From: Centroberyx gerrardi
Lineage: Eukaryota; Chordata; Actinopteri; Beryciformes; Berycidae
NCBI RefSeq assembly: GCF_048128805.1
Contig: NC_136001.1
Span: forward strand, 7,035,001 to 7,099,000
Direction of reading: 5' to 3'
DNA: 64,000 nt
The position numbers were made by a program, and so were the translations under genes. Numbering within the stretch: the first letter of the stretch is position 1; every line of letters begins with the position of its first letter. Below, piece after piece: positions 1,421 through 58,968 of this stretch. The notes beneath the pieces are model-generated. The model was not told where the DNA came from and searched no databases. It saw only the letters and a list, made by a program, of their open reading frames with translations.

Positions 1421-16131
<14,711 letters not shown>

Positions 16132-16250: not shown

Positions 16251-16299
16251 TTCCCACAATGCAGCGCGTTGGCGCGAAAACTGCTCTGCAGCGACCAAT
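16251..16299 (-). promoter_or_regulatory. rbl1: rbl1 promoter: ZNF143-like site, E2F site and CCAAT box
   Basis: About 120-170 bp upstream of the rbl1 ATG. 16,251-16,268 reads TTCCCACAATGCAGCGCG, fitting the ZNF143/Staf motif with about one mismatch. 16,269-16,279 read on the minus strand is TTTCGCGCCAA, a canonical E2F site. CCAAT lies at 16,295-16,299 on the plus strand. No TATA box is seen. Mammalian p107 promoters are known to be E2F-regulated, so this likely marks the core promoter. Confidence 0.75.
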
Positions 16300-30600: not shown

Positions 30601-33600
30601 TGACCTTCTTTAGGATAACAAAGTCATTCTCCAGATTGTTTCTCTTGTTGATCTCGTCCTCATATCTGGGGCAGAGAAGGGAGGGTTACACTTCATTACA
30701 GTGGTAAACAGGGACATTACAGTACTTATGTTTAAGAACAGCTCTCTGAATACACTGGTTTGTAGCAGTGCAAAAGCATGTTAGGTTTCACCTGAAATAT
30801 ATCACAGCAAACATATATGTTACAGTATAATATGACTCAATTTACAGTATGATTGTATTCTGTTTTGTGGTTTTATTTACTTCTATTTGACTTCCTCTGC
30901 TTGACTCTGCATATTCCTCAGCTCTCTTTGACAGAATCTAGTTTGTAGGACAGTTAGACTGATATATTGGGCCGTTGTTGGCTTTTCATTGAAAATCGGA
31001 TATTGGCAAGTCAGTCTTGCCCACTGTCAATAGGATGGAGGTGAGGATGTGATTTTAGCTTCAGGGGCGTCAGGATGTAAAACCTGCAGAGAAACCTGCC
31101 TCACTCTACTCTAAAGAGCTGCTAACCAACCTGAGAATTTCGTTAGTCTGGATTTTCAATGGAGAGTTTTAGTATCACATGATCTAAATGTTGTTTCAGA
31201 GGCTTTTCCTCCCTGCAGCAAATTATTAAATTCTGTGGGAAACAGTGAATCTTTGTAATTTAGCAGAATTTTGGGGTATTTTTTCGGTATGAAAAGTGGT
31301 CAAACAAAATAGCAGCACAAAATCAGTACCCTATATTGGAATCAGTATCAGCTTCAAAAATCGGTCGAATTCTAGTTTGTAGTAGTGCAATTAATTATTT
31401 GAATTCTTTTTTCATTTTTCCAATTCTGATAAACATCAATTATCCTAATCCCTAAGAGTCTTCACTTGAGTTTGAAGTCCTCTACCAATCCCAGCATGCG
31501 TCTGTCTTGTTGTCATTATTTACTGTCTATTCTATTGATTTGTGACATGCAATTGATCCTCATAGTGAGATCAGCTTACTACAGTAATAACATTATTTAC
31601 TTGTGTTTGTAGTCCTCCACCAGACCCTGCATGTTCCTCAGCTCTCCGTCCAGTTTGGTCTTGTCGTTGTTGACCAGGTCCATCTGGCGCCGCAGGCCGG
31701 CCATGTAAGCCTCGAACAGCGGCTCCACGTTGGAGCGGCCGACCGTCTGGCACTGCAGCAGCTCCAGCTTCGTCTCCAGCATCTTATTCTGCTGCTCCAG
31801 GAAACGAACCTGGGCAGGGAGGTGGGAGAGGAGGAGAGAGAAAGAGAGAGAGATGAGTTATAGGTATGGAGAGCTTTCAGGTGAGGTAACGCACCCTCTG
31901 TCGGCCATATTGGAGGTCCTCAGATCTTGGGCAGCAATGGCCGTGAACGGCTGATTGTATTTCTAAATGTACGACTTGTCCGTCTTGACATGGTTGATTG
32001 CTGTGCTTTGACTGGGAACTGATCATTTCTACATTGACAGTGTACATCTGCTTGATTTTGTGTTTAATGTCAGCTTCTTAGCTAACCATAGTATCTGGTC
32101 AGCTAACCATTGCTATTTTGTTGTTAACACATCTGATTTGCAAACTAGCTAACATATCTAGTAAAAGCTAGTGTTAGTAGTGGCTAGTGGTTGCATGTTA
32201 ATATTAACATTGGTTGGTTTACTAAATGCTTGTTTGTTCACTAAGTTTGTTCATGTTAACTGATGACTCTTTGCAAGCCAAACATGTACTATTGTGGTTT
32301 AGAGGCTAGGACACAGTAACCTAAATTTGGAAACAAATCTATCTTATCAGACTATTCACTTAAATAACATTATTGACTAACATTATTGTTTCAGTTTGAG
32401 AAATTAGATTGCACTCTCAAGGGCTTGAAATGTTCTTCCGTTACTAAATTTCATGAAATACAGTTGTTGTCTTGCTACTCCTTCACCAAACAAAGGTTCA
32501 TTTCCAGTCCCTAACAAATCCTCTTGTATACTCGAGTCAGTATTTGTGAACACGAGCAACTCTCTTCTGAAGCCAGAAATCAGACAACTGCAACTCTGTG
32601 ATGTCAACAAGATGTAAAATGTGGAGCTGCTCCGTGGAGAATGAGCTGGGAAAGATGCTGAAAGTGACTGTGAAACAGATTTCTTGAGGAAAAGGATACA
32701 TGTTATGCGACAACATTACTCATTTGGGTATTAAAACTCAATACATGACTCATGCCCTTCCTTTCCTCAACAACTATTGTTGAAGTACCCTTGAGCAATG
32801 CTCTTAAACCCCAGCTCCTGTTGATCTGCTTCAGTGGCAAACAGTAGAAGACTGTGCTTGTACTGGGCAGCTTGCAGGTGTAAAGGTGTTTAAATTAATA
32901 TTAAACAGAGCAGTTTTAAAAATGAGGGTATGTGTTTATCAAAACCCTTCCTTGGATAAACAAAGGTTAAAGAAACAGCATCATTCCAACAGATGACAAA
33001 CTTTAGCTCCTAGCTGTCCCGATGCCTGCACCCCGACTGTATTGAAGCCTGTATTGGTACAGCTAGTGTTTCCTGCCTGCGGCCGGGTGTATCCTCTGTC
33101 TATTATGCCTTCTCCCTCCAACACAAAGCCTGTGTTCTGTTCTGAGGGGACTAATCCCCTCTGAGACATGACCACACCACGTCTGACCTGGTTTATCAGG
33201 TTACAACCCGGCTCAATGGGACGGAAATGGGACAGATAGCTTAAATATCCAATGGCCCAAGACTGGTGATTCAATGTTTAAAAGGCAGTTTAAATCCCAG
33301 ATGTACACACTGAGTTTCTGGTTCTTTTTTTGAGATTTGGCAAGAGAGTTTCTGTATTACAGTGGCGGTTCATCTCTAAATCGGTGTCCATTTCTACAAC
33401 AAGCAGCACCATTGAATAAGATTATATTAACTAGCAATCTTAGGTCACTGACCCTCGTTAAGCATTCATTTTTTTGCAACTTTTATCATGCAGATTGATT
33501 ATCTTCCTGCCACAGATGAAAATTAGTCTGCCTGTTGCATTGGACTAATTACTTCTCTGCATGAGAGAACAAGCTCTTTAATGTTTCAGTCTCATTGAGG

Positions 33601-39511: not shown

Positions 39512-42348
39512 CTGTTAGAGTTGAATTTACAATAACAGAAACAAAACAGAAATGTGCAGGTGAGACAGAGGAACCCCTGGCATGCTTGGGTTAGGGGATA
39601 AACCTCCCCTAAAAGAAGAGAAGCAGATACTTGTATAGTGTAATTGATATATGATATCAGTGTCTATAATTAAACACCAGGAAACATTGTGGTGGCTATT
39701 TTGCATCCCTGCTCGTAAGTATTTGGTTTCATCAATTTGTGTATGCAAAATGGAGCCAGTGAAAGCAAAAACGTAAATCATTGATACAATGTCAATGAAA
39801 CAAGAAAGAAAGATACCTTTCTTCTTTGTTGGTCCTGTGACTCCCATCTCAAACGGTCCTGCTAGGGCATTCCTCCTCTCTTGTGGTCCTGGACTCTTCT
39901 TTTTCGTTGGTACTTGAGCGCACTTCTTCTCTGCTCCTGAAACTGCCTTCTTCTTCATTGGTCCAGGGAGTGTCTTCTTCTTTGGTGCTTGGGGCACACC
40001 CAACTTCTTTCGTCCTTTACACCTCAGCCTCACCTCCACAGGGTAATGGTCACTGATGCTGAGAGCCTGGGACACACAATAAAGTCACATCATATCATTT
40101 TTCATTGTGATTGTATGTGTCCTTGTATAAATGATCCATGTTTCCATTCTTGCTCTCTGGTGTCTGCACACAGTCACCATAGTTGGAGATATCAGCGCTC
40201 GTTTTCCTCCTTCAGAAGAAGACATTTGCTGCCATTCATTGTTATCCAGCATGAAAAACAACTTCAACAACTTTTTATTTTATTTATTTATTTTTTCATT
40301 ATTACTACTATTTCCTATTATTTATTGAGGGTGTGGGGGTGGGGTACGTACAGGGGATGTGGGATGTGGGGATGGGTGGGGGCGGGAGGATAATATGGGG
40401 AAAAGTTATGAGGACACAGAGGGTTAGCCATCAGATTACATTTCAGTTGTATTTTCATATATTTATAAATTCTGTGGGTGATGGCGGGGGGGAGGAGGGA
40501 GGGGTAAGGGGGGAAATATGTTTCTCTTTAAGGAAATGTAAAATGCCAATGTAAAATGTCTGAACACCCTTCTATAGAGAAATTCAATAAAAAGTTGATC
40601 ACAAAAAAAAAAATTCCACAGAGCGAGAGAATCAATCAATCAAAGGAAACAAAAAACTTTCTATTTTCTCCTCATTTTATTGTTTAATTCATTAATATTT
40701 CATCTTATTTAGGCAGTCTTTGTTAGCCGGGACAGCAGCCACGACACGACAAAACGACAAAAACAACAAAAAACGAGTAAATGTTAAAAACTCTAATTAT
40801 ATGTGGAATGCATTGCAAAATGATTGTGGGAAATGTAAACTAGACATAGACAAAAGTAAATGGACTTTAACTCTAAATGACATTGTTAAAGAGAGATCAC
40901 ATTTCCCCTGTTCTGGTGTCCCTTCATTGGCTTCCTGTTCGTCAAAGAATTGATTTTAAGGTTTTATTAGTTGTTTTTAAGGCCCTTAATGGTCTTGCCC
41001 TGTCTTTTATCTCCGATCTCCTACACCCCCGTGTTTCCTGCAGGTCTCAGACTGAAGTGTAAAGGGGATCGAGCTTTTGCCGTTGTGGCCCCTGTAAAAC
41101 ACTGTACCCCCCAGTATTAGACTTGCCGCTTCTATTGGCACCTTTAAATTGCATCTTAAAACCCGCCTCATTTCTGTAGCTTTTGATTCTGTAAGATTTG
41201 CTTGTTTTTTTTTTCTTTTTTCATGTTTTGTATATACTTGTACAGCACCTTGGTCGACGAACTTGAACTTAATGTATTTCTAAGACACATGGATGCTGCT
41301 TTAAACTCCACTAGAGCGCAGCATCAGCAGCTGTTTGTTTCAAACAGTCTTACCGTGGCATCAGACAGGCTGAAAGCTTTCTGGAAGTTGAAAGGCTTGG
41401 CTGAGCGGGGGACGATGGCTTTCAACATGGCTTCTCCATACAGAACGATCCTGTCGGCAGAAAATACAATCGCATGCTTCAAAATACAATCAAGAATTTA
41501 TTCGGCCATCTGAATTTATTGATACACTCAAATATACTCTTGAAGACTTTGACATGTAGATGGAGAATGAGCTTTTTAGTGCTTTCTTCGTCAATCATAA
41601 CTCAGATTAAAGGTGTTTTACTGTCGCATTTACAAATATAACAAAATACACATAAAACTCATACTTTTCTATCATGTAAAGTCTGTCCTTGTATCAGCAC
41701 CAATTCACAAAATAAGACATTAAGATGTGTGTGTTACCTGTCATAGGTGTGGTCATTACAGTTGTGAGCCGTGGTGTCGACATCATCACCTATCAGCCAA
41801 TGGTAGTTGAGATTAGAGCGGATGCGGATCTCCCCCATGCTCCTCTTGGAGATGTAACGTCCGTCTGCATTAAAGTCCCCCAAGATCATAATGTTCTGCA
41901 CAGACAACAACACCAATATCTTCACCACCACCATCATCATCATCAACATTAACAGCAAGAGTAACAACCAACCATGTTTAAGTCCTTCAGGGTCATAAAT
42001 AGACACAAAATACTGATAATAAATGTGATTTATATGCATCTTTCTCATGGAGTCAAAGCACCAAACCTACATCAGTTTTCCATTTTCTCCTGACGATGTC
42101 GACCACGTCATGCAGCTCGTCCAGCTCCTTCTCCGAGTCCACCGGCTTAGTGTGGACCGGGACCAGAACCAGGTCCTTCACCACTGTACACACACACACA
42201 AACACACATGCAAACACGCACACACACTTTTGTTTAGGTCACGTAGGCCTGAAAAAGCTCATGGAAGAAACCTAGACCCTCAGTCCAGCCCTACTGTAAC
42301 ATACACAAATGAACAGCATGATTACACACACAGTGATGAATATACAGG

Positions 42349-42387
<39 letters not shown>

Positions 42388-45300
42388 ATTCAGTGCCACA
42401 CCCGACCTCTCTCAGACAGCCTGTCTACTCCCTCTATCTTGCCGTCTATCCTCCCGTCCCATTCCATCCATCATTTTTCTCTTTCCCCCGCTCTCTTTCC
42501 TGTTCCTCCCCTATGTCTCTCTCTAAAATACCAATAAATAAATGGGATTTATCATACATTATCAGTCTCTGTGTGTCTATGATCCTGTGTCTGTGATCCT
42601 GTGCCCTAAACTCTCTGAAATTTGCCTGAAATTGGCTGTGGGTGTGGCCAGTGGTGAGCTGGTTGTGGCTATCAAGGTGTCAGCCACAGAGCAGGGAAGC
42701 CGTAGCAAGAACAACAATGGAGGACAGCAGCAGGAGAAAAAAAGAACAGCGAAGCTAAACGTTCAAAAACACAGTGAACATCAGTGTTGCTTTTATTGCA
42801 GATTGGCTACATTCGCTGTCTGCTTCTTCAGCACCTGTGGCTACATGATGGATGAGTGACAGGGAATGGAGCGGGAACTTGCCCAACTGATGGAGAGGAG
42901 GGAGGGACTAACGATACACTTCCTGCCTCAAGGCGAAAAGTTGCTTATTGTAGCTTTAAGATGCCGTCCTCCATCTAGATGCCCAGATGCCCCTTGTGTC
43001 TCAGACCAGCAGGCTCAGCTGGTCCTTAGGTCCTTTCAGCCGGTTGTTGCTGAGACCAATAGCAAGTTTAGAAATAATGGGTAATGTTGGGAACTAGGTG
43101 TAAGCCTTAATTTAGGTACAGAGTAGAGCAGGTGAATGCAGAAATCTCTGCAGTGCGTGCGCCGAGGCTGTTCACTTTATTTCACTCACTACTATTCAGG
43201 AACCTCTGCTGATATTTACTAGTCATATTATGCTTCAGTAAGGCAGAAATGTGACACATATACCCTTTAATGCCCATGCAAAGTCTAAACCCACCGATGT
43301 ATTTGCCACAGTCAGAAACACCTACTGTCTGTTCTACTGCAGGTTTGTCCGACCTCCCAGAAGTCATAGGCTCCTATTGTTTTTTAAAATCCATTAAAAA
43401 CTGCTCAGAGACATAACGCTGCATTGACGAATGTAATCCATCATTTTAAATAACACGTGTATTTTATTTTTTAACACAACTTAATAAGGCCACAATCATT
43501 GCAGCTGCAATCGTATCAAAAGTAGTTACATTCTACCTGAGAGGAGATTCACCACTTTGTTTACTTTCAATGTTACATCTGGATTATGAGCGTCCCCTGG
43601 CACAGTAAGTGTAAATGAGTAAAAAATGATTAGGTGTGAATGGGGCTACATAGCTGAAGCTTTTTGCAGACTGTGCGATTGTAACCGTCTTTTGCGTTCA
43701 CTTTATGTCAGACGATTGGAGAGAAGTAAAATCTTGATTATCAGCCTGTCAGACTGTAGGCTACATATTAAGGCCGTTCCATGGATTGGCTGATCTTGAC
43801 CTTGTCCCACTGAATGAACAAAGACTGCTAACCATCTTTGAAGACAATTTCCCAGATGTGAAAAATGTGTCTGGGACGGCAATAAGATGGACAAAATGGC
43901 ACAGTCTGCAAACACCTTAAGCCTGTTCATGTGAATATGCAGCTGTTGTTTTGAAATGAATTCAGCTCCAGCATCTCCTAATACCATAGCTTGCATGACC
44001 ACTTACTGACCATTTTCAGAGATTTTTTTTTCGCTTATTGGCCAAGCGGTCTCAAATTAAAAAATCAACATGGAAGTGTTGTTGTGACGGTATTGCGGTT
44101 CCAGTAGCACCTTTGGCCGACCGGGCCAATCTGAAAGCGGTTTTCCTTCTGCTGCACCCGCTCTGATTCTGCCTTGTCACTGCCACCAGTGTGCAGTAAT
44201 GGAAAAAGTTAAATAGTCCCCCCCATTAAATGTAATAATTAGCTGCTGATGATAAAAATAATCAAACAAAGCTTTTGAACAGAATAAATATAGAATACAT
44301 GTATACATGTAATAATACATGTATATAATATACTTTTGAAACACTCAATATTATATTATATAATATTTTAAAATGATGTCTCATTGATGCACCATCATAG
44401 TGCACTAGGCTGTAAATTCAGCATATTAAAAAGCAATGAACAAAATAATATATAACCAACAAAGTAATATGTAGATTAATTTTTTTTATTTTATTTTGAA
44501 GAGGGAAACAGATGGAGGTAGATGGTTATATGATGTTAATCTCCACTGTAGTTGTTATCATCCTCTTCTTGTTCTTGCCAGGCGTGCAGGACAGAAGTTT
44601 CCGGAGTCCTCCGAAAATCTTCTGATACCATTCTGTTTTTTTAATTTCTCTGGCTGTGGGTTTGAACAGTGACTTCAGCTTAGTGGTCTTACTGTTCAGG
44701 GTCAGGCATGAAGGATAGAAATTTCCAGAAGAATCTCCTGAAGCATCGTCCTCTTCCGTCTGTTTTCTCCCTCTGGCTGGGAGCTTGAACAGTGACGTCC
44801 CAAGCAAAGTCCTCAGCAAAGTAAACTTCAGCATGGTGGTCGTCCTGTTTGATGTCAGGTGTGCAGGTGAGAGATTTCCAGAGGCCTCTGAAAAATCTCC
44901 TGACACCCTTCTTCTTCTTTGCCCTCTTGGTTTTATCACTGAAGGCCGAAGCATCGTCCTCTTCCATCTGTTTTCTCCCTCTGGCTAGGAGCTTGAACAG
45001 TGACATCCCAAGCGAAGTCCTCAGCAAAGTAAACTTCAGCATGGCGGTCGTCCTGTTTGATGTCAGGTGTGCAGGTGAGAGATTTCCAGAGGCCTCTGAA
45101 AAATCTCCTGACACCCTTCTTCTTCTTTGCCCTCTTGCCGTGGGCTTCATCACTGATGTCTGAAGCATCGTCCTCCTCCTGTTCGATGCACGTCTTTTTT
45201 TTCTCCCTCTGGCTGGGAGCTTGAACAGTGACGTCCCAAGCGAAGTCCTCAGCAAAGTAAACGTCAGCATGGTCGTCTTCAATATCAGGCGTGAAGGTCA

Positions 45301-48300
45301 GAAATTTCCAGAGTCCTCTGAAAAATCTTGTGCTACCCTTCTCTTTTTTTGCCCTTGGCTTTTTCACTTGGCTGTCATCCGACTCAACTGCCTTGCTGTT
45401 GGTTTTGCCCAGGCAGTTTGTGGCCAAGTTGCTTGGAGGAAGGTCAGGGGTATCAGACACACTGCAGTCCATAGTGGCATCTGCCGCCTTCTCAGTTGGA
45501 GCCAAGTTGTCTGAGGCCATAAGAGACTTCTTCTCCATCAAATCCATGCTGGCCTCGGCTCTTTCAGTGGCAGCCCTGAGTTTGTTTGCCAACTCAGTGA
45601 GGGCTGACTCGGAGTCCTTATCCAGAATGTCCTCATTAACAGTTGTTACAGCGGACGTCGAGGCAGCCTCATGCTCATGCTCAGGGGTCAGATCATCTTC
45701 AACTGTAACAATGTCAGCCCGGTACCGGAGGACTGAGAGGGACGGGAGACCTGGGTGGTACTGGTGGCCTGAGAGGTACGGGAGACCTGGGTGGTACGCG
45801 GGGCCTGGGTGGTACGCTGGGCCTGGGCGGTACACGGGGCCTGGGTGGTACGCGAGGCCTGGGTGGTACGCTGGGTCTGGGTGGTACACGGGGCCTGGGT
45901 GGTACACGGGGCCTGGGTGGTACACGAGGCCTGGGTGGTACCGGTGGCCTGGGTGGTACCGGTGGCCTGAGAGGTACGGGAGAAGTGGGAGGTACACGGG
46001 GCCTGGGAGGTACACGAGGCCTGGGTGGTACCGGTGGCCTGAGAGGTACGGGAGAAGTGGGAGGTACACGAGGCCTGGGTGGTACCGGTGGCCTGAGAGG
46101 TACGGGAGAAGTGGGAGGTACACGGGGCCTGGGTGGTACATGAGGCCTGGGTGGTAGGCCTGGGTAGTACCGGAGGCCTGGGTGGTACGCGGGGCCTGGG
46201 TGGTACCGGAGGCCTGGGTGGTACGCGGGGCCTGGGTGGTACGCGAGGCCTGGGTGGTACGCGGGGCCTGGGTGGTACGCGGGGCCTGGGTGGTACGCGG
46301 GGCCTGGGTGGTACGCGAGGCCTGGGTGGTACGCGGGGCCTGGGTGGTACGCGGGGCCTGGGTGGTACGCGAGGCCTGGGTGGTACGCGAGGCCTGGGTG
46401 GTACCGGAGGCCCGGGAGGTACGGGATGGCTGGGGTGCACGGGAAGGTACATCAACAAACAACTTATCCCAAAGTGCCGATCCGGAGTTGGATGGATTTG
46501 CGTATTCCAGCATATCCAGTACTGTCATGTAGTTAGTGGACAACATCCAGAGTGCATTCTCAACATTGAGATGCAGCGTGGCCTCTTTTGGATTGTCGGT
46601 GAAGCGCAGGTCTGGATTGGTGACCTTGACCTTATTGATCAAATTGATCAGCCGACTCCAGACTAGCCTGCGTTCTGCTCGACAGCTGTATCGCTGGCCG
46701 TCTTCCTGTAAGAGTGCCCCCTTGAGGACCCTCCTGACGGAGTCCTTGCTCAGTATGAGCGTCTGGAAGAAGAGAAGAGAAGAGTAGAAGAAGAATAATG
46801 GTTAATTGTCATTTCATTTCATCTCCATGTCTCACAAACACAACCTACATCCCAATATAGTGCAGGGAATGCTTATGAAGGTATTTATGTTGCAAAACCC
46901 GAGAGCTTGTAGACTTGATCTGAGAACTTGTAGAATGCGATCTGAGAACTTGTAGAATGAATGTGAACTTGTATGTTGAAATTTTCACTCACAAAAAAAT
47001 AGTTGATAGTTAGATAAAAACAATGACAGCTGAAAACTTATAAGGCAACATTTACTCATATTTATTTTTTAGTTTAGTTAATTTCCCAGTACAACCACAA
47101 GTCGGTGATTACAACCTCTCAAACTGCTAGCTAACTGTGACCAAATATCTCAAGTAATCTGAAATAAGTTTGTCCCGGTTGATCATCTTGATTAAAAGTA
47201 CTTGGTGTTCCACTGACGAGTTGGAAATGTCCAATCAAGTAACATTAACTCTGATTTAGTTGTTTATAGGCACTTTATTAAGTTACAGCCACAGTATTAC
47301 ACTCTTCAGTACGACTCAACGGCAGTCAGCTGGCGGTGTATTGAGCGGAACGACTGGTAAAGCGAAGCATTATGGGAAGGGCTAAAAAGGCCTATACCTA
47401 GCTAAAAATGACCAGTGACAAGTAAGTCTATTAGAAATTGAGTCAATCTGCAAATACACAGACTTAGGAATGATGGCTGTGTGTGTGTGTGTGTGTATGT
47501 TTGTGTGTGCCTGTGCGTGTGTGTGTGTGTGTGAAGTCGGGGGCAGGGTAGATCACTCAAATCTTTGTTTTTACTGAAACTACATTATATCTACTCAAGT
47601 TCTGTGTTAACACTATGACTGACATGCATCATGGGACATGTAGTGCAGTTCAACCTGAGAATCAAGGTGGCTTATAGATTGGATAACCCATACTGGGCCA
47701 ACACGCACTAAAATGGGTACCAAGCATGCACTTGTACACTAAATCACCCTGAACAGTCTGGGTTAGTTTGGACAGATAATTAAAATATATATATATTACA
47801 TAATTTCCCATTTTTCTCCCATTTTCTCCAATTCAATTCAGTTATTAGAGAGCTAGAGAACAGGTGCCCCTTTACCTTCCCCACATTTCGCCACATTTCT
47901 AATATTTTACATTGATAATATTTCCTAATATTAATTTGAGAAAGTTAAAGTCTTTACTTACCGTCATCAAACTTGTAAGTCAGATTCAGATTCCTTGTAG
48001 GTTGTGTCGAAAAAAGTCCTGAGGTTACGATTTCCGCTGTGTTGAGGTTCGCTGTGAGTCTCAGTCGCCTTATGACGGGCTGAAGCCTCAACACTGGTAT
48101 TTATTGTCCATGGAATGTTCGGCTTCATCACCTCAGCCATTGTGACTTAAGGTTCACCTCTGCAGTCTGCCTATGCAGATGAGCGCCTGTGTGTTCCTGT
48201 GCATAGCAGCTCATTGTGTGGACACAGGAGAACCTCAGCTCTCTTGCTGTTGCCATAAACTGTCACAATTATGCATCACTGTTGTGTGGGAATGTCAAAT

Positions 48301-48783: not shown

Positions 48784-51700
48784 AAAAAGAAAGAAAGCAA
48801 AAAAGCAAGCTTCATGGTGTGAAGTCTCTCCCCCCCCCTCAAACACACGCACACACACAGGTACCTGCAGTCGGACAGGAGAATCGCAGGATGTACGGTT
48901 CTCTGGCGAAGGCGTCTTCATCTCCAACTTGATTATCTTCATATTGGTAGGAGTCAATCAGCTTCACCTCGTCCTCTCTGACACACACACACGCACACAT
49001 GTATCAGAAACAATACAGACAAATATACTATCCTGTGTTTAGATGACACACTAACTTAAAACTTCATTTCTATTATTGGACGAAAACTCCTCCACTCTTG
49101 GGGGTTCGGTGCCTTGCTCAAGGGAAGCTCAGTAGCGGATATTACAGTAAAGGAGGGCAGAGTGTGACCTTCAGTCTGCTACCTGTAGAGGAAGACAAAC
49201 TGCTCCTTGTAGGAGTCTCTTCCCAGTCTGCTGCTCAGCGTCATGGAGAACGGACGCTTCTTGTTCGCTCTGAGGAAACACAAACAACTCAGTACAAAGT
49301 ATAGATTGTTACATGCAAAAAGAAGAATACATGGTACCTGAAAACATATTTTTATCAGAGGGCGTTTTTATAATCACTCTACTCTCTTGTATTTGTATTT
49401 TATTTATTTATTTTAATGTAAACTTGTTTTATCTGACATTTTATTCAATGAACTTGGTGCGACTTTGGTTTTGTGTTTTGTCTTCACTTTGCTTTTATCA
49501 TCTTTTGTTTTGTTTGTGTGAAATACTTTCTAACATTTGCTTTGAAAAGTGCTATTGAAATAAATTATCATTATTAGTACTAGTAGTAGTAGTAGTAGTA
49601 GTACTAATACAATATATTTTCATGTTATAATATAGTGGTGATATCAAACACACAGCAACTTTTTCATGCTAGGATTACTTGTATTAATCTGTGTTAAAGG
49701 ATGAATGAATGGCCCTTGTTTAAATGATTTTCCTAGTGTTGGAACCAATATTCAACAATAGGAATCTATCCAAATAGGTTTTCAGGGGAACATTTACGCA
49801 TATATAGCAGAGAATCCACCTGGTGTTGTTGAGTTTCTGGAGGAAGCTTTCCATGGCCGCACCGTTCTTATCCACCACCTCCAGGATCAACACCACACTG
49901 TACCGAGACACAATCTGACACACACACACCCACACACACCCACACCCACACACACAGACACACACACACCCACACACACCCACACACACACACACACCCA
50001 CACCCCCCCCACACACACACACACAGAGTGACTGATGTGATGAAACACTATCTGATCAAAAACAGCATCGACACAGAGATGAGAAGAGGAGGGCAGAACA
50101 CGATAGAATAGAATAGAATAGAATAGAATAGAATAGAATAGAATAGAATAGAATAGGACAGAACAGAACAGTACAGAATAGAACAGGACAGGACAGAATA
50201 GAATGGCATAGAATAGAATGAACTAGAACAGAACAGAACAGGACAGGACAGGACAGGACAGGACAGGACAGGACAGGACAGAACAGAATATATGTATATA
50301 TATCAGCAGCTTAAAGGAGCTTTGTGTAACATTTTAAACATCAATATATCATTTTTAAAGCAATCTAAGAAATCCAGCAGACTTCCTATCAAATCTGACC
50401 AGGTGACACACAGTGTAAAACAGAGTAGAGGCCAGTAATAATAATAATAATAATACTACATTTTATTTGAGGGCACCTTTCAGGACACCCAAGGTCGCCT
50501 TACAATGCATAAAAAGAAACATACATACATACAACAGGTAAAAACTGCGAAACATGGCAAAGACACCAGTATAGACAAAACAAGTGACATAGGGTGGGCA
50601 GACACGTATAGGAGGGGGAATAAAAACAGTAACAGTGTAAGGATAAAAGGGAAACGCACAGTACGATGAGGATTACAGTGAGTAGGCCAGTTTGAACAGG
50701 TGAGTTTTGAGGTGGGATTTGAATGCTGTTATGGTATCAGACTGTCGAATGTGTGGGGGCAGGGAGTTCCAAAGCCTGGGAGCAGTGCAGCTGAAAGCCC
50801 TAGCACCCATGGTGCTGAGGCGTGAGGTGGGGATGGTCAGGAGACCAGCTGAGGATGAGCGCAGGGAGCGGGAGGGGATGTAATCCTGGAGGAAGTCAGA
50901 GAGATAAGTGGGGGCTAGGTTGTGGAGGGCTTTGAAGGTGAGCAGAAGGTTTTTATAGTCAATCCGGTATTGAACAGGGAGCCAGTGTAGTTGGATGAGA
51001 ATGGGGGTGATGTGGTCGGATGATTTGGTGCGAGTAATGATCCGGGCAGCCGAGTTCTGAATGATTTGAAGCCTGTTAAGCAGTTTGGTGGGAAGGCCAG
51101 AGAGAACAGCATTACAGTAGTCAATCCGGGATGTGACGAATGCGTGGACCAAGACTTCAGTGCTGGATTGAGACAGGGATGGGCGGAGTCTGGAAATGTT
51201 GCGAAGGTGGAAGAAAGCAGTCCGGGTGATGTTTTTTATGTGAGGTGCAAAGGAAAGGGTGCTATCCAGAATGACACCGAGGCTCTTGACTTGGCTGGAG
51301 AGGGGTACAGGGAAGCCATCAATGATGATGTTTAGGGCTTTGGTGTTTTGGGCTTTGGAAAGGGTGGTTTTGGAACCAATGAGCAGGGCCTCAGTTTTGC
51401 TGCCATTGAGCTTCAGAAAGGGCAGTGGTGGGTTTAGTGGAGATGTAGACCTGTGTATCATCAGCGTAGCAGTGAAAGTGGACACCATGGTGACGGAAGA
51501 TTGTGCCCAGGGGAAGGAGGTAGATGATGAATAGGAGTGGACCCAGTACTGACCCCTGGGGGACACCCAGTGGAACAGCAGAACACCTTGACCTGTGGTT
51601 CCTCAGTTGGACATACTGTTGTCTGTCAGTGAGATATGACGAGAACCAGGAGAGTGCAACACCAGTAATCCCAATGTAACACCAGTAAGCCCCAATCAAG

Positions 51701-52380
51701 CGTGCGTGACGAGGCACACCAGATCAGAGTATCCAGCCACAGAGAGCACAGAGGAGACCCAACAGTCCCATACAGGTGAGGCCTTACCGGCGAGGTTAGC
51801 TCCAGGCTACCGAGCGTCAACACAGTAGCGCCGAGCACACATAGAGACAACCAGACTGTTAAACTGCTATTTCGGCGTCACAAGGTGTCAGACCGGACAG
51901 GCTAAGCAGTTTATAACAGACGGATTTAAACAAATCAAACAAAACACAATAAATCACGGTGGAGGCGCGGCAGCAACTTGCCAGCGGTCCCTCCCCGGAA
52001 GCACTTTTTCCAATTCAGTAGAGACTGACAGGCTTCTCAGCAATAGTCTCATGATAAACACAGGATCTTAACTAGGGGAGTGATTACATTTTTACACTTT
52101 GAGATTGCATGAACACCAGATTACCATGGATACCAAACAAATGAAAGAATCATCAAAGATTAGTTTCATTCATTTTTTTCTCCCAACCCAGTAATTTTTG
52201 GAGTTTACGGAAATTGTGCTAATGTCTGAAAATTACTGATATTTTATTGGTGTTCAAATCCTCCTTTAATGATCAGACCTCTGAAAATCTGTGGGTTACC
52301 TTGATGAGGTAGGGGAGGACAGACTTGTTGCTGACTTTTCTCCATCCCAGCTTCCTGATGTTGAAGGCTGCTATCCTCAT
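39363..52380 (-). CDS. dnase1l4: dnase1l4, DNase I-like endonuclease with basic C-terminal tail
   Basis: Divalent-cation-dependent endonuclease of the DNase I family. Exons: 52300-52380, 49820-49914, 49183-49269, 48865-48977, 42071-42183, 41738-41895, 41354-41450, 39817-40066, 39363-39511; 1,143 nt, 380 aa, all phases consistent. Catalytic and metal residues are present: N in AAFNI, E39 (LILEVVD), H136 (VPVHTKP), D170/N172 (GDFNA), D203/T205 (DTT), D215 (YDRIV) and D254/H255 (SDHYPVEV). No signal peptide precedes MRIAAFNI, and the Cys pair of the structural disulfide in secreted DNases is missing, so the enzyme is probably intracellular, as in the fish dnase1l4 group. After residue 260 comes a Lys-rich tail of about 120 residues, absent from the usual 270-285-aa proteins. 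Intron 4 hosts another gene; intron 1 hosts an L2 copy. Which fish dnase1l4 paralogue this is cannot be told. Confidence 0.92.
39817..40066 (-). CDS. dnase1l4: dnase1l4 coding exon 8 (active-site His and start of Lys-rich tail)
   Basis: 250 nt. Begins [14 protein letters not shown], then Lys-rich imperfect repeats ([35 protein letters not shown]). Donor AAAG|GTATCT. Confidence 0.92.
40195..40885. repeat. Dispersed repeat, copy B (interrupted)
   Basis: Same repeat as 26,200-26,650. It is interrupted at 40,270-40,613 by a LINE 3' end. It lies in dnase1l4 intron 7. Confidence 0.7.
40270..40613 (+). mobile_element. LINE (L1-type) 3' fragment inserted into a repeat
   Basis: Ends ATTCAATAAAAAGTTGATCA and poly(A). 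Flanked by TTCAACA (40,263-40,269) and TTCCACA (40,614-40,620), a near-perfect 7-bp target duplication. Severely 5'-truncated and non-coding. Confidence 0.7.
40886..41275 (+). mobile_element. L2/CR1-type LINE 3' fragment
   Basis: Plus-strand frames give [20 protein letters not shown] and [15 protein letters not shown], the C-terminal end of an L2-like ORF2, then broken sequence and a TTGTACAGCACCTTGGTCGA-type tail. Non-functional. Confidence 0.8.
41354..41450 (-). CDS. dnase1l4: dnase1l4 coding exon 7
   Basis: 97 nt. Encodes [20 protein letters not shown] and [12 protein letters not shown]. Donor ACG|GTAAGA. Confidence 0.94.
41738..41895 (-). CDS. dnase1l4: dnase1l4 coding exon 6
   Basis: 158 nt. 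Encodes [34 protein letters not shown] and DHTYD. It has the metal-binding GDFNA and DTT and the catalytic Asp. Secreted relatives have Cys in GCSYV and in HCAYDR; here the residues are GRYI and DHTYDR. Confidence 0.96.
42071..42183 (-). CDS. dnase1l4: dnase1l4 coding exon 5
   Basis: 113 nt. Encodes [20 protein letters not shown] with catalytic His136, then [17 protein letters not shown]. Donor GAT|GTAGGT. Confidence 0.95.
42352..42386. repeat. (GT)n microsatellite
   Basis: About 17 GT units in dnase1l4 intron 4. Confidence 0.95.
42390..44480. other. dnase1l4 intron 4, 3' part
   Basis: 2.1 kb with no exon recognised. The segment at 42,600-42,970 looks like a decayed dispersed repeat, but I could not assign a class. 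Confidence 0.5.
44485..44490 (-). terminator. Polyadenylation signal of the nested gene
   Basis: Minus-strand AAAATAAAATAAAA holds overlapping AATAAA hexamers just beyond the last degenerate module copy. Confidence 0.5.
44580..45345 (-). repeat. Tandem module copies in the nested gene
   Basis: Copies around 45,302, 45,083, 44,877, 44,725 and 44,591 (position of the RFFRGLWK segment) share AGTCCTCAGCAAAGTAAAC and GATTTCCAGAGGCCTCTGA blocks. Copies 2 and 3 are nearly identical; the last two are degenerate. Spacers of differing length break the frame after copies 2 and 3. Confidence 0.88.
44936..46762 (-). CDS. Nested gene, main coding exon
   Basis: 1,827 nt, open throughout, ending GRGRCFGLQ and a stop. 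Starts [15 protein letters not shown] after the acceptor. Downstream of the stop, further module copies continue in other frames until 44,526, so the present C-terminus probably results from a frameshift. Confidence 0.6.
   Translation of the reverse strand, partial: TLILSKDSVRRVLKGALLQEDGQRYSCRAERRLVWSRLINLINKVKVTNPDLRFTDNPKEATLHLNVENALWMLSTNYMTVLDMLEYANPSNSGSALWDKLFVDVPSRAPQPSRTSRASGTTQASRTTQASRTTQAPRTTQAPRTTQASRTTQAPRTTQAPRTTQAPRTTQASRTTQAPRTTQASGTTQAPRTTQASGTTQAYHPGLMYHPGPVYLPLLPYLSGHRYHPGLVYLPLLPYLSGHRYHPGLVYLPGPVYLPLLPYLSGHRYHPGHRYHPGLVYHPGPVYHPGPVYHPDPAYHPGLAYHPGPVYRPGPAYHPGPAYHPGLPYLSGHQYHPGLPSLSVLRYRADIVTVEDDLTPEHEHEAASTSAVTTVNEDILDKDSESALTELANKLRAATERAEASMDLMEKKSLMASDNLAPTEKAADATMDCSVSDTPDLPPSNLATNCLGKTNSKAVESDDSQVKKPRAKKEKGSTRFFRGLWKFLTFTPDIEDDHADVYFAEDFAWDVTVQAPSQREKKKTCIEQEEDDASDISDEAHGKRAKKKKGVRRFFRGLWKSLTCTPDIKQDDRHAEVYFAEDFAWDVTVQAPSQREKTDGRGRCFGLQ
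44936..47967 (-). CDS. Unrecognised two-exon gene nested in dnase1l4 intron 4, repeat-bearing protein (about 610 aa)
   Basis: Exon 1 ends in ATG ACG followed by GTAAGT (47967-47962). Exon 2 begins at 46762 after TCTTCTTCCAG and stays open to a stop at 44936: 610 residues in all. A TATA-like AATAAATA (48,098-48,105) and AATAAA (44,485-44,490) bracket it. Regions: 1-106 unique and probably helical ([50 protein letters not shown]); 117-350 from a 15-bp minisatellite read first as (RTTQA[S/P]) and then as (YHPG); 351-470 an acidic/Ala-rich linker ([13 protein letters not shown]); 471-610 two copies of a basic/aromatic module (RFFRGLWK...[16 protein letters not shown]). I know no family like it. 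Promoter, splice sites and polyA signal favour a real gene; the repeats make pseudogenisation possible. Confidence 0.6.
45720..46432. repeat. 15-bp GC-rich coding minisatellite
   Basis: About 45 units of GGCCTGGGTGGTACG and variants on the plus strand. Units are multiples of 3, so the nested frame stays open. One 13-bp unit near 46,148-46,160 shifts the frame between two repeat peptides. No stop codon occurs in most frames on either strand, so the opposite-strand frames are shadows. Confidence 0.95.
47962..48070 (-). other. First exon (5' UTR plus Met-Thr) of the nested gene
   Basis: A consensus donor GTAAGT at 47,956-47,961 follows ATGACG. A TATA-like AATAAATA about 30 bp upstream of 48,070 gives the approximate 5' end. 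Only two codons are coding. Confidence 0.5.
48098..48105 (-). promoter_or_regulatory. TATA-like box of the nested gene
   Basis: Minus-strand ACAATAAATACC lies about 130 bp upstream of the predicted ATG, in the right place for a TATA element. Confidence 0.4.
48748..48799. repeat. (GAAA)n microsatellite
   Basis: About 12 GAAA units, intronic in dnase1l4. Confidence 0.95.
48865..48977 (-). CDS. dnase1l4: dnase1l4 coding exon 4
   Basis: 113 nt. Encodes [20 protein letters not shown] and [16 protein letters not shown]. Donor GCAG|GTACCT opens the 6.7-kb intron that contains the nested gene. Confidence 0.95.
49183..49269 (-). CDS. dnase1l4: dnase1l4 coding exon 3
   Basis: 87 nt. Encodes [20 protein letters not shown] and QFVFLY, matching the SxxLGRxxYKEQ motif of the family. 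Confidence 0.95.
49820..49914 (-). CDS. dnase1l4: dnase1l4 coding exon 2
   Basis: 95 nt. Encodes [20 protein letters not shown] with catalytic Glu39, then [10 protein letters not shown]. The acceptor TCAG is preceded in the transcript by (GT)n-rich sequence. Confidence 0.93.
49917..50026. repeat. (CA)n with CCC interruptions
   Basis: CACACACCCACACA-type repeat next to the exon 2 acceptor; read as GT-rich in the transcript. Confidence 0.93.
50102..50285. repeat. (AGAAT)n and (GGACA)n microsatellites
   Basis: Two pentanucleotide arrays, AGAAT at about 50,104-50,155 and GGACA at about 50,233-50,281, separated by related variants. Confidence 0.95.
50437..52010 (-). mobile_element. L2-type LINE, degenerate and 5'-truncated or rearranged
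   Basis: Minus-strand frames at 51,717-51,391 ([34 protein letters not shown]) and 51,566-50,673 ([57 protein letters not shown]) are the reverse transcriptase core and C-terminus, offset by a frameshift near 51,420. The (ATT)n tail at 50,433-50,456 suits L2. 51,720-52,010 may be its 5' UTR joined after an internal deletion. Confidence 0.85.
52300..52380 (-). CDS. dnase1l4: dnase1l4 exon with start codon
   Basis: The acceptor TTCACAG at 52,386-52,387 leaves only TCAAC before ATG (52380-52378), so an untranslated exon lies upstream. Encodes [16 protein letters not shown] and VLPYLIK. Donor AAG|GTAACC. Confidence 0.93.
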
Positions 52381-56929: not shown

Positions 56930-58968
56930 AGTTCTGACTTCCCACAAGAAAGTGTGCTTTCAAACCCCGCAGACAGGGCTGCCCCATTAGCCCGGCCCTC
57001 TTTAATCTCTTTATTGAACCTTTGGCTCAAACTATTAGACAGGAAAGAGGTTTGGAGGGTATAACTATAAAGGGAGTAGAATACAAAATCGACCTGTATG
57101 CAGATGATGTATTGGTGACACTACAAAATCCAGGTTCAGGGGTACCGCTGCTGATGAATATCTTAAAGATGTAAGGGAGTTACTCTGGATATGCACTTAA
57201 TGTTCACAAAACACAGGCCTTGACATTTAACTACGCCCCCGCCCAAGAACTGGTAAACAAGTATAATTTTAACTGGCATTTACCATATATCCAGTAACTT
57301 GGGGTCTACTTACCGAAAGATATGTCCTCCCTGTATGCCATAAATTATAATCGGATTAACAAAAAAATATGTAACAATATGGACAGGTGGGCCTTGCTTC
57401 CCCTCGATATAGGCAGCAGAGTAAGATCAATCAAGATGAATATCCTTCCCAAATTACTGTACCTATTCACAGCCCTGCCAGTGGAGGTCCCTTTTAGACA
57501 GTTTAGGGAATGGGATAAACACATTTCTAGGTTTATATGGAACAAAAAGAGACCTCGAGTAAAATACTCAACCCTGCAGCTGCCAAGGGAGAGGGGAGGT
57601 ATGGCATTACCATGTTTGAGGGATTATTATTTATCTGCTCAGTTGAGATCACTAGTACTTTGGTGTAACTCAAGCTATGAAGCTAAATGGAAAGACATAG
57701 AATTTTCCTTGATGGATACACCAATTCAGTCGGTTCTGGGTTGTCTCGACGGGGTGAAAGAAATATTTCAATTACAGAACCAATGTGTCAGTCTTTCTAT
57801 TAAGATATGGCTAGAGGTGGTTAAGCGATTCCAGCTTCATAGAGAGGTAAAAGTACTAAGTTGGCCGGCCTACAATCCATACTTCACACCAGCAGTGTAC
57901 GATCATAGATACAGGCAATGGACCCAACATGGCATTACTGCTCTCTGTAGAATTATATCAAATGGGGAACTTGATAGTTTTCAGAACCTATGCCAATTAT
58001 TTGAACTCAATAGACAGGATTTTTTTTTAGGTATTTACAGGTCCGCCACTTCTTTCTGAAGGAGATCAAAAATGATTCAGATTTTCATAGAAGCTTATAA
58101 GGGTGAAAATAACAAAAGGGTTATAGGCAAACTATACACTGCTATCACCTCAATGAACAAAAATTCAATTGACTATGTCAGACAGCGTTGGGAAAGGGAC
58201 GTGAGGCTGGAAATACCTGAGGAGGTGTGGTTACATGCCTGGGAAACTCAGTGCTCCGTCACTAACTCACTGACCTGGAGGGATTTTAGTTGGAAGAGCC
58301 TGATTCGGTTTTTTATAACACCAAAGCAGAAATCCAAATTCACTGGGTCCCAGCACCCTTGCTGGAGGGAGTGTGGATCAATGCAAGTGGACCATGCCAC
58401 ATATTTTGGCTGTGTCCACGCATTCAATCTTTTTGAGAAGATGTGGAACGTTTAATGTCTAGGATTCTGGGTCTTAACCTCGATGTGTCTTTTTTCTCTC
58501 TGTACCTTGGAGTTATGCCTGAAGGGATATGTAAAAGTGATGCCTACCTCCTGAAAATTCTCTTGGTTGCATGTAAAAAAGCTGTCACCAAATGTTGGCT
58601 TCAGAGAGATCCCCCTACTGTGGACCTTTTTACAGGAATTGTCAATCATATACGCCCTTCGTCTACAGAAAGACAAAGGAGAAAAATACTGGAGGAAATG
58701 GGACTGTTACTCACAGGAAATGGATACTGATAAGGGTTTTTTATTTTTATTTTATTTATTTTTTTATTAATTCATTTATTTACTTTCTTTTTCCCTTTCT
58801 TACATTAGGCATCAATGCCGAAAACCTTGTGTAATGAACTGTACCTGCCTACCCGTCTCTGACGATTACTGATACCCAAACATGACCTCATGTTCTCTGC
58901 CCCACGTTTGTTTGTACACTAAATTTGAAATATTGTCAAAAATAAAAAAAAAATAAAAAAAAAAAAAG
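56930..58968 (+). mobile_element. 5'-truncated L1-type LINE, inactive
   Basis: Plus-strand frames carry [28 protein letters not shown] (reverse transcriptase), then SIKMNILPKLLYLFTALPVE, RFIWNKKRPRVKYSTLQLPR and a long C-terminal part, broken by stops at about 57,173 and 57,296 and shifts near 58,050 and 58,450. It ends in an A-rich tail at 58,939-58,968. It lies 45 bp beyond the sec13 stop, in the opposite orientation. Confidence 0.92.

Follow-up and report, generated by a model that had tools for sequence, protein, structure and literature searches.

A candidate repeat-bearing gene with an eroding C-terminal end, nested in a dnase1l4 intron of the fish Centroberyx gerrardi

Vertebrate genes nested in the introns of other genes have been described, and excerpts of PMC3933685 give the LRRTM genes and alpha-catenin genes as an example. 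A similar arrangement is seen in a 64,000-nucleotide stretch of the Centroberyx gerrardi genome (assembly GCF_048128805.1, contig NC_136001.1, positions 7,035,001 to 7,099,000), which is called the window here and whose own numbering is used throughout. Intron 4 of a DNase1L4-type gene in this window contains a two-exon unit, and the likeness to the LRRTM case, as those excerpts present it, is that a whole gene would lie within another gene. Set beside that case by description only, the unit occupies the host strand, has an intron of its own, ends in decaying C-terminal repeats and has yielded no homologue among proteins of about 336-1067 residues, the lengths covered by our protein search. 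The analysis established the anatomy of the unit, an open frame beyond chance outside its repeats, and past purifying selection on the frame of its modules. It is probable that the unit is a lineage-restricted, fast-evolving gene, nested on the same strand, that codes for protein now or did so until very recently. An earlier sequence-only reading had proposed such a gene, and that interpretation is partly supported.

In the proposed gene, exon 1 would contribute a leader and the codons ATG ACG. From exon 2 would come an N-terminal region of unique sequence, then a linker coded by the minisatellite, then an acidic middle region in which a helix is predicted, and finally tandem modules of basic/aromatic and acidic stretches, with KKKK clusters resembling nuclear signals sitting in the modules. 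Parts of this putative protein can be compared with described families. Cementoin repeats, the transglutaminase-substrate repeats of trappins, have the consensus GQDPVK according to excerpts of PMC3110255. The Cementoin model (PF10511) matches a 199-residue piece of the minisatellite-coded array with an expect value (E) of 5.6e-12 (45.5 bits, above the cut-off of 27) and the whole nested protein with E 4.2e-07 (29.9 bits). Both share a period of six residues with one glutamine per unit; unlike Cementoin, however, the array unit TTQA(P/S)R has no lysine and departs from the consensus. The match is confined to the first part of the array, which is poor as codons, and no further trappin domain is matched in Pfam. 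Convergent periodicity is the likely cause. Beyond this periodic match, Pfam returns a single match under cut-off, consistent with the sequence-only reading, which knew no family of this architecture.

The second resemblance concerns the N-terminal region, whose residues 10-96 align with positions 54-132 of the 251 in the XopAI model NF041404 (ADP-ribosyltransferase-like fold). This NCBIfam match is weak, with E 0.0002 and a score of 20.6 bits where the cut-off is 300. Among ten controls, one reversed and nine shuffled, none matches NF041404 and one matches another model (E 0.068). Excerpts of PMC6829252 place the arom-R, STS and ARTT motifs of XopAI at residues about 201-265, whereas the match covers an earlier part of the model and misses these motifs, as far as model and protein numbering, which may differ, can be equated. 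Unlike that of XopAI, the host organism here is a fish, and no XopAI chain occurs among the PDB matches of the N-terminal region. The similarity is a lead and not a family assignment. The oogenesis-related gene org, which we take to be a fish-only gene, was also considered as a candidate. In the excerpts of PMC9369028 it has six exons and 221 residues and is reported to be highly conserved in fish; identity with the nested unit was dropped on this gene structure alone.

Wider searches gave no relative. The protein database holds many fish and at least one Centroberyx affinis protein, seen in the host control among the 120 matches listed out of 1971. With candidates limited to the lengths given above, which places short or fragmentary homologues outside its scope, the search returned 126 candidates for the N-terminal region and 1755 for the middle and module region, none at E<=1. 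The homologue in related fish that the sequence-only reading had asked for was not found among annotated proteins of these lengths. Against viral contigs the N-terminal region gave 24 pattern matches, of which 0 were confirmed. Among PDB sequences its best E is 1.1, and the middle and module piece has no match. Scans of the window with Rfam at the gathering threshold and for transfer RNAs found nothing. Among the open-licence papers listed on dnase1l4, nested genes and coding minisatellites no title deals with the nested locus, and no paper on a Centroberyx affinis genome turned up. With E 0.13 and 0.056, a Pfam DUF6468 match in the middle region was judged to be chance, as were three NCBIfam matches to the middle and module piece (below cut-offs, E 0.029 to 0.17).

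The anatomy noted in the sequence-only reading, two exons on the minus strand, is confirmed and comprises the following features.

48866..48976, minus strand: host DNase1L4-type coding exon 4, matched piece (protein match)
48098..48105, minus strand: TATA-like box AATAAATA (read in the sequence)
47962..48075, minus strand: exon 1, leader followed by ATG ACG at 47967-47962; 5' end estimated from a putative transcription start
46763..47961, minus strand: putative intron, with GTAAGT donor at 47961 and pyrimidine-rich CAG acceptor at 46765-46763
46439..46762, minus strand: exon 2, unique N-terminal region of 108 codons (open frame and codon score)
45722..46438, minus strand: 18-bp minisatellite region, 239 codons as cut here, no stop in the three sense frames (stop scan and unit matches)
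45359..45721, minus strand: acidic middle region with predicted helix at residues 37-68 of a 261-residue piece (low-confidence model)
44936..44938, minus strand: TGA stop of the 610-codon frame, TAA directly after (translation)
44485..44495, minus strand: overlapping AATAAA polyadenylation signals (read in the sequence)
42071..42181, minus strand: host DNase1L4-type coding exon 5, matched piece (protein match)

The host exons, strung together, match 'deoxyribonuclease-1-like [Centroberyx affinis]' in a protein search with 94% identity over the whole query. Host coding exons 4 and 5 flank the unit on either side, which places it wholly within host intron 4 and on the host strand, as had been proposed. 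The leader contains a single ATG from 48107 onward, that at 47967, and the GTAAGT donor directly abuts ATG ACG. At the other end of the intron, the acceptor ...CTCTTCTCTTCTCTTCTTCCAG ends at 46763, with pyrimidines at 24 of the 25 bases preceding CAG. These signals, like the AATAAA at the end of the unit, are all present as described earlier. Taken alone, the TATA-like box is weak, since the minus strand of the window has 37 such matches, and the donor is not special, with 12 GTAAGT on the same strand. Across the window, 8 CAGs of the minus strand and 5 of the plus strand are preceded by at least 23 pyrimidines in 25 bases. Joined, the two exons give a frame of 610 codons that ends at the TGA at 44938-44936.

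For coding tests, the 608 codons of exon 2 were split into 108 unique N-terminal, 239 minisatellite-region and 261 middle and module codons. The 609 open codons claimed earlier are indeed open, 610 counting the ATG, but the figure overstates the case: the minisatellite region is stop-free in every sense frame and therefore carries no weight for coding. Outside the repeats the frame is open beyond chance, as a functional nested protein-coding gene should be. The 261-codon part is open in any of three frames in 0/2000 dinucleotide shuffles, while the 108-codon part is open in 23/2000 shuffles in frame 0 and in 86/2000 in any frame. All 369 non-repetitive codons of exon 2 are open in a single frame. 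Codon scores, for which 16 exon pieces (688 codons) of the window's other genes were the training set, point the same way: frame 0 tops all six frames in each part, with -0.025 for the N-terminal region, 0.098 for the middle and 0.116 for the modules; the 95% and 99% levels of random 324-nt windows are -0.141 and 0.024. Of the 89 open reading frames (ORFs) in the window with at least 108 codons, the nested one ranks fourth by its best 324-nt window, and the fifth is a shifted frame of the same locus that contains a third copy of the module.

The modules provide further evidence of coding. Five copies can be aligned, two of them within the main frame.

45200..45355, minus strand: module copy 1, in frame (copy alignment)
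44972..45133, minus strand: module copy 2, in frame (copy alignment)
44764..44925, minus strand: module copy 3, intact, one base out of the main frame (copy alignment and translation)
44640..44746, minus strand: module copy 4, decayed by deletions and stops (copy alignment)
44526..44639, minus strand: module copy 5, decayed by a frame change (copy alignment)

The ratio of replacement to synonymous change (dN/dS) was computed over blocks with 48 aligned codons in all, with the linkers and a gapped stretch of 12-18 nt excluded. Copies 1 and 2 differ by 9 synonymous changes at 29.3 sites and 7 replacement changes at 114.7 sites, giving a dN/dS of 0.16 (Fisher test on rounded sites, p 0.0007). Third positions carry 10/16 of these changes, an excess with p 0.016. 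For copies 1 and 3 the ratio is 0.19, and the third-position excess has p 0.031. The module frame was thus very probably once translated and under purifying selection for some period, and this signal, together with the codon scores and open frames, forms the protein-coding signature of the unit.

The same copies record how the end of the frame has changed. A 190-nt tract is shared by copies 2 and 3 (45137-44948 and 44929-44740). It contains 5 differences, of which 4 are synonymous when read in the module frame, and the sequence immediately beyond the tract is more divergent. This pattern looks like the outcome of gene conversion or unequal exchange. The main frame reaches TGA TAA shortly past copy 2, and the decayed copies 4 and 5 end just short of the AATAAA. 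A one-base frame change, apparently common to the homogenised copies 2 and 3, would leave copy 3 untranslated. The two copies share their end sequence, so the assembly would have to be wrong at both places to produce the change, which seems unlikely. An earlier protein probably included modules that the present frame no longer covers, and the C-terminal end is eroding. The sequence-only reading missed the stop-free sense frames and the single phase jump of the minisatellite, the out-of-frame third module and the two decayed modules before the AATAAA. The frame cannot be taken as fully intact, as the module tract runs on out of frame, and the unit may be a gene in the course of losing its C-terminal end or a recent pseudogene.

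Candidate promoter elements are found within the nested intron.

47626..47644, minus strand: ZNF143/THAP11-type composite site ACTACATGTCCCATGATGC, exact match to ACTACANNTCCCANNATGC (motif scan)
47367..47377, minus strand: second ZNF143 core site TCCCATAATGC, in a local CpG-richer patch (motif scan)

The CCCATAATGC site reported by the sequence-only reading is real and is a ZNF143-type core (47377-47367). A stronger site lies about 250 bases upstream in the same intron; its motif ACTACANNTCCCANNATGC is expected 0.12 times per window with up to 2 mismatches allowed. Exact TCCCANNATGC cores occur 4 times in the window against 0.63 expected, and 2/4 lie within this 1.2-kb intron. In excerpts of PMC7154149, SBS2 is AAACTACAATTCCCATTATGCACCGCG and the submotif ACTACA belongs to ZNF143 and THAP11 jointly, and the ACTACATGTCCCATGATGC site agrees with that description. 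According to excerpts of PMC6977252, ZNF143-type sites typically lie within a couple of hundred bp of transcription starts, and zebrafish znf143a activates a reporter. The nested gene may have its own promoter, formed by the TATA-like box, the ZNF143/THAP11-type intron sites, or both. The stretch from the second ZNF143 site to the acceptor contains no ATG that one of its 4 donor-like GT[AG]A[AG] sites could connect in frame to exon 2. Elsewhere in the window, further ZNF143-like sites are present at 31481-31499 and 16252-16262, both on the plus strand.

Several observations weigh against a gene that is coding today. Scored leave-one-out, 15/16 known exon pieces exceed the N-terminal codon score and 13/16 exceed those of the middle and modules. 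The frame is broken between module copies 2 and 3, copies 4 and 5 are decayed, and the repeat dN/dS speaks of past rather than present selection. The comparisons of copies 1-2 and 1-3 are not independent, as copies 2 and 3 are nearly identical, and they hold only 16 and 15 changes. Shifted frames give dN/dS values of 1.31-2.59 in computable cells, others having no ratio because dS is zero; this favours selection in the module frame, but the shifted frames contain 2-4 stops per copy and are a rough, imperfect control. The observed/expected CpG ratio, 0.39 in the whole window, reaches 0.98 in exon 1 (47901-48100), a point in favour of the gene, and 0.66-0.76 around the second ZNF143 site; it is, however, also 0.55-0.90 over the coding exon and array (windows 46800 to 46001) and thus singles out no promoter. 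No relative was found at matching length in a database rich in fish. Single-sequence AlphaFold models have very low confidence (mean predicted local distance difference test, pLDDT, 42.3 and 43.6).

A rival reading is a recent pseudogene, in which a formerly functional nested gene, its product no longer required or no longer made, would have left a relic frame that no stop has yet hit. Such a relic fits the frame change past module 2 and the decayed copies 4 and 5, a phase jump in the minisatellite array described below, the missing relatives of comparable length, and codon scores under most known exon pieces. It sits less easily with 369 non-repetitive codons that have all remained open in one frame and with copies 2 and 3, where change has been mostly synonymous. 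We regard this account as possible but rather unlikely.

The array itself offers room for another arrangement. Its unit cores fall into two phases, 14 from 46399 to 46165 in one and all 26 from 46152 to 45738 in the other, separated by a single jump between 46165 and 46152, where the spacing is 13 nt and not 18. The array peptide accordingly reads TTQA(P/S)R ahead of the jump and YHPG(L/P)x beyond it. Because every sense frame lacks stops, the array can absorb insertions and deletions (indels), and because both flanks currently share one frame, a compensating event would have occurred somewhere. In the proposed gene, the flanks stay in one frame across the minisatellite. Alternatively, the array could lie in a second intron, with the N-terminal and module regions as separate exons. 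The jump would then be harmless, array frame-0 codon scores are far below those of both flanks, and polypyrimidine-CAG stretches are visible by eye at the array end. However, no GTAAG or GTGAG occurs from 46560 to 45722, the GTs that close the N-terminal region are of the GTACC/GTTG kind, and the frame runs open across the array unspliced. Further splicing of this sort is improbable.

A chance open frame, with a non-coding minisatellite in an ordinary intron and coincidental signals, would account for the missing homologues, and the window is rich in TATA-like and GTAAGT matches; the shuffles of the 261-codon part and a synonymous bias between module copies that is confined to one frame make this very improbable. 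Least credible is that the ZNF143/THAP11-type sites belong to an unrelated regulatory element or promoter, for instance of a non-coding or antisense RNA, with the ORF as a passenger: the exact composite site, a second core about 250 bases off in a CpG-richer patch and the fact that a start at these sites gives no new in-frame ATG exon for the N-terminal region would suit it, but past selection on the module frame argues that the ORF is no mere passenger, and the ATG exon upstream has signals of its own.

If the nested gene is real, its transcript would be spliced and would give a nuclear, largely disordered scaffold protein. Residues 473-610 hold 26 lysines and arginines and 27 aspartates and glutamates, and in the modules basic KKKK clusters and aromatic stretches alternate with acidic ones. 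The protein start has no signal-peptide-like look by eye. Ten-residue blocks above pLDDT 60 occur only in the middle-region helix (73 and 66). Judged from these models and the composition, a largely disordered, probably nuclear scaffold is the most likely product.

The surroundings of the unit show several other features. A transposable element was considered as its identity and set aside, as it has no terminal inverted repeats and its ORF no Pfam enzyme domain, with no transposon-library comparison made; inverted pairs straddling the unit, among the best 25 of 71 intron pairs by length, are TG/CA simple repeats. The same host intron contains an inverted pair at 43653-43922 (39 nt, 79% complementary, spacing 192 nt), possibly a small mobile element or hairpin. 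An earlier host intron carries ORF remnants resembling a reverse transcriptase of non-long-terminal-repeat retroelements on the host strand (50676-51723, minus strand; by eye). The C-terminal tail of the host DNase (39530-40066, minus strand) consists of lysine-rich repeats with KKK...GP units, and the Centroberyx affinis protein P0001 has such a tail too. By eye, the gene order on the minus strand is RBL-like (about 4-7 kb), keratin-like (about 37 kb), dnase1l4-type and SEC13-like (about 59-63 kb). Open frames at 57298-58727 (plus strand) resemble an L1-type retroelement fragment (by eye). A large tandem array spans 8080-9605, in which a 109-bp unit with 5.5 copies and 98% matches (8143-8740) sits within a wider array of 16-bp period.

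A more specific picture can be offered tentatively. The gene may belong to an orphan teleost family, limited to berycid-like fish or evolving too fast to be recognised in others, in which a minisatellite neutral to the reading frame links a helical N-terminal domain with a tandem array of basic/aromatic modules. This array would be shrinking while gene conversion keeps its copies alike, the frame change having been spread by one such conversion, and a nested ZNF143/THAP11-type promoter within dnase1l4 would drive the gene. We consider this fuller version doubtful.

If real, the nested unit would be a vertebrate gene confined to one lineage and caught in the act of losing part of its coding sequence; among length-matched proteins no relative was found. 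It would offer a test case for whether a minisatellite without stops in any sense frame lets a protein absorb indels while its flanks stay in frame. It would equally be a test case for the coexistence of same-strand nested genes with their host.

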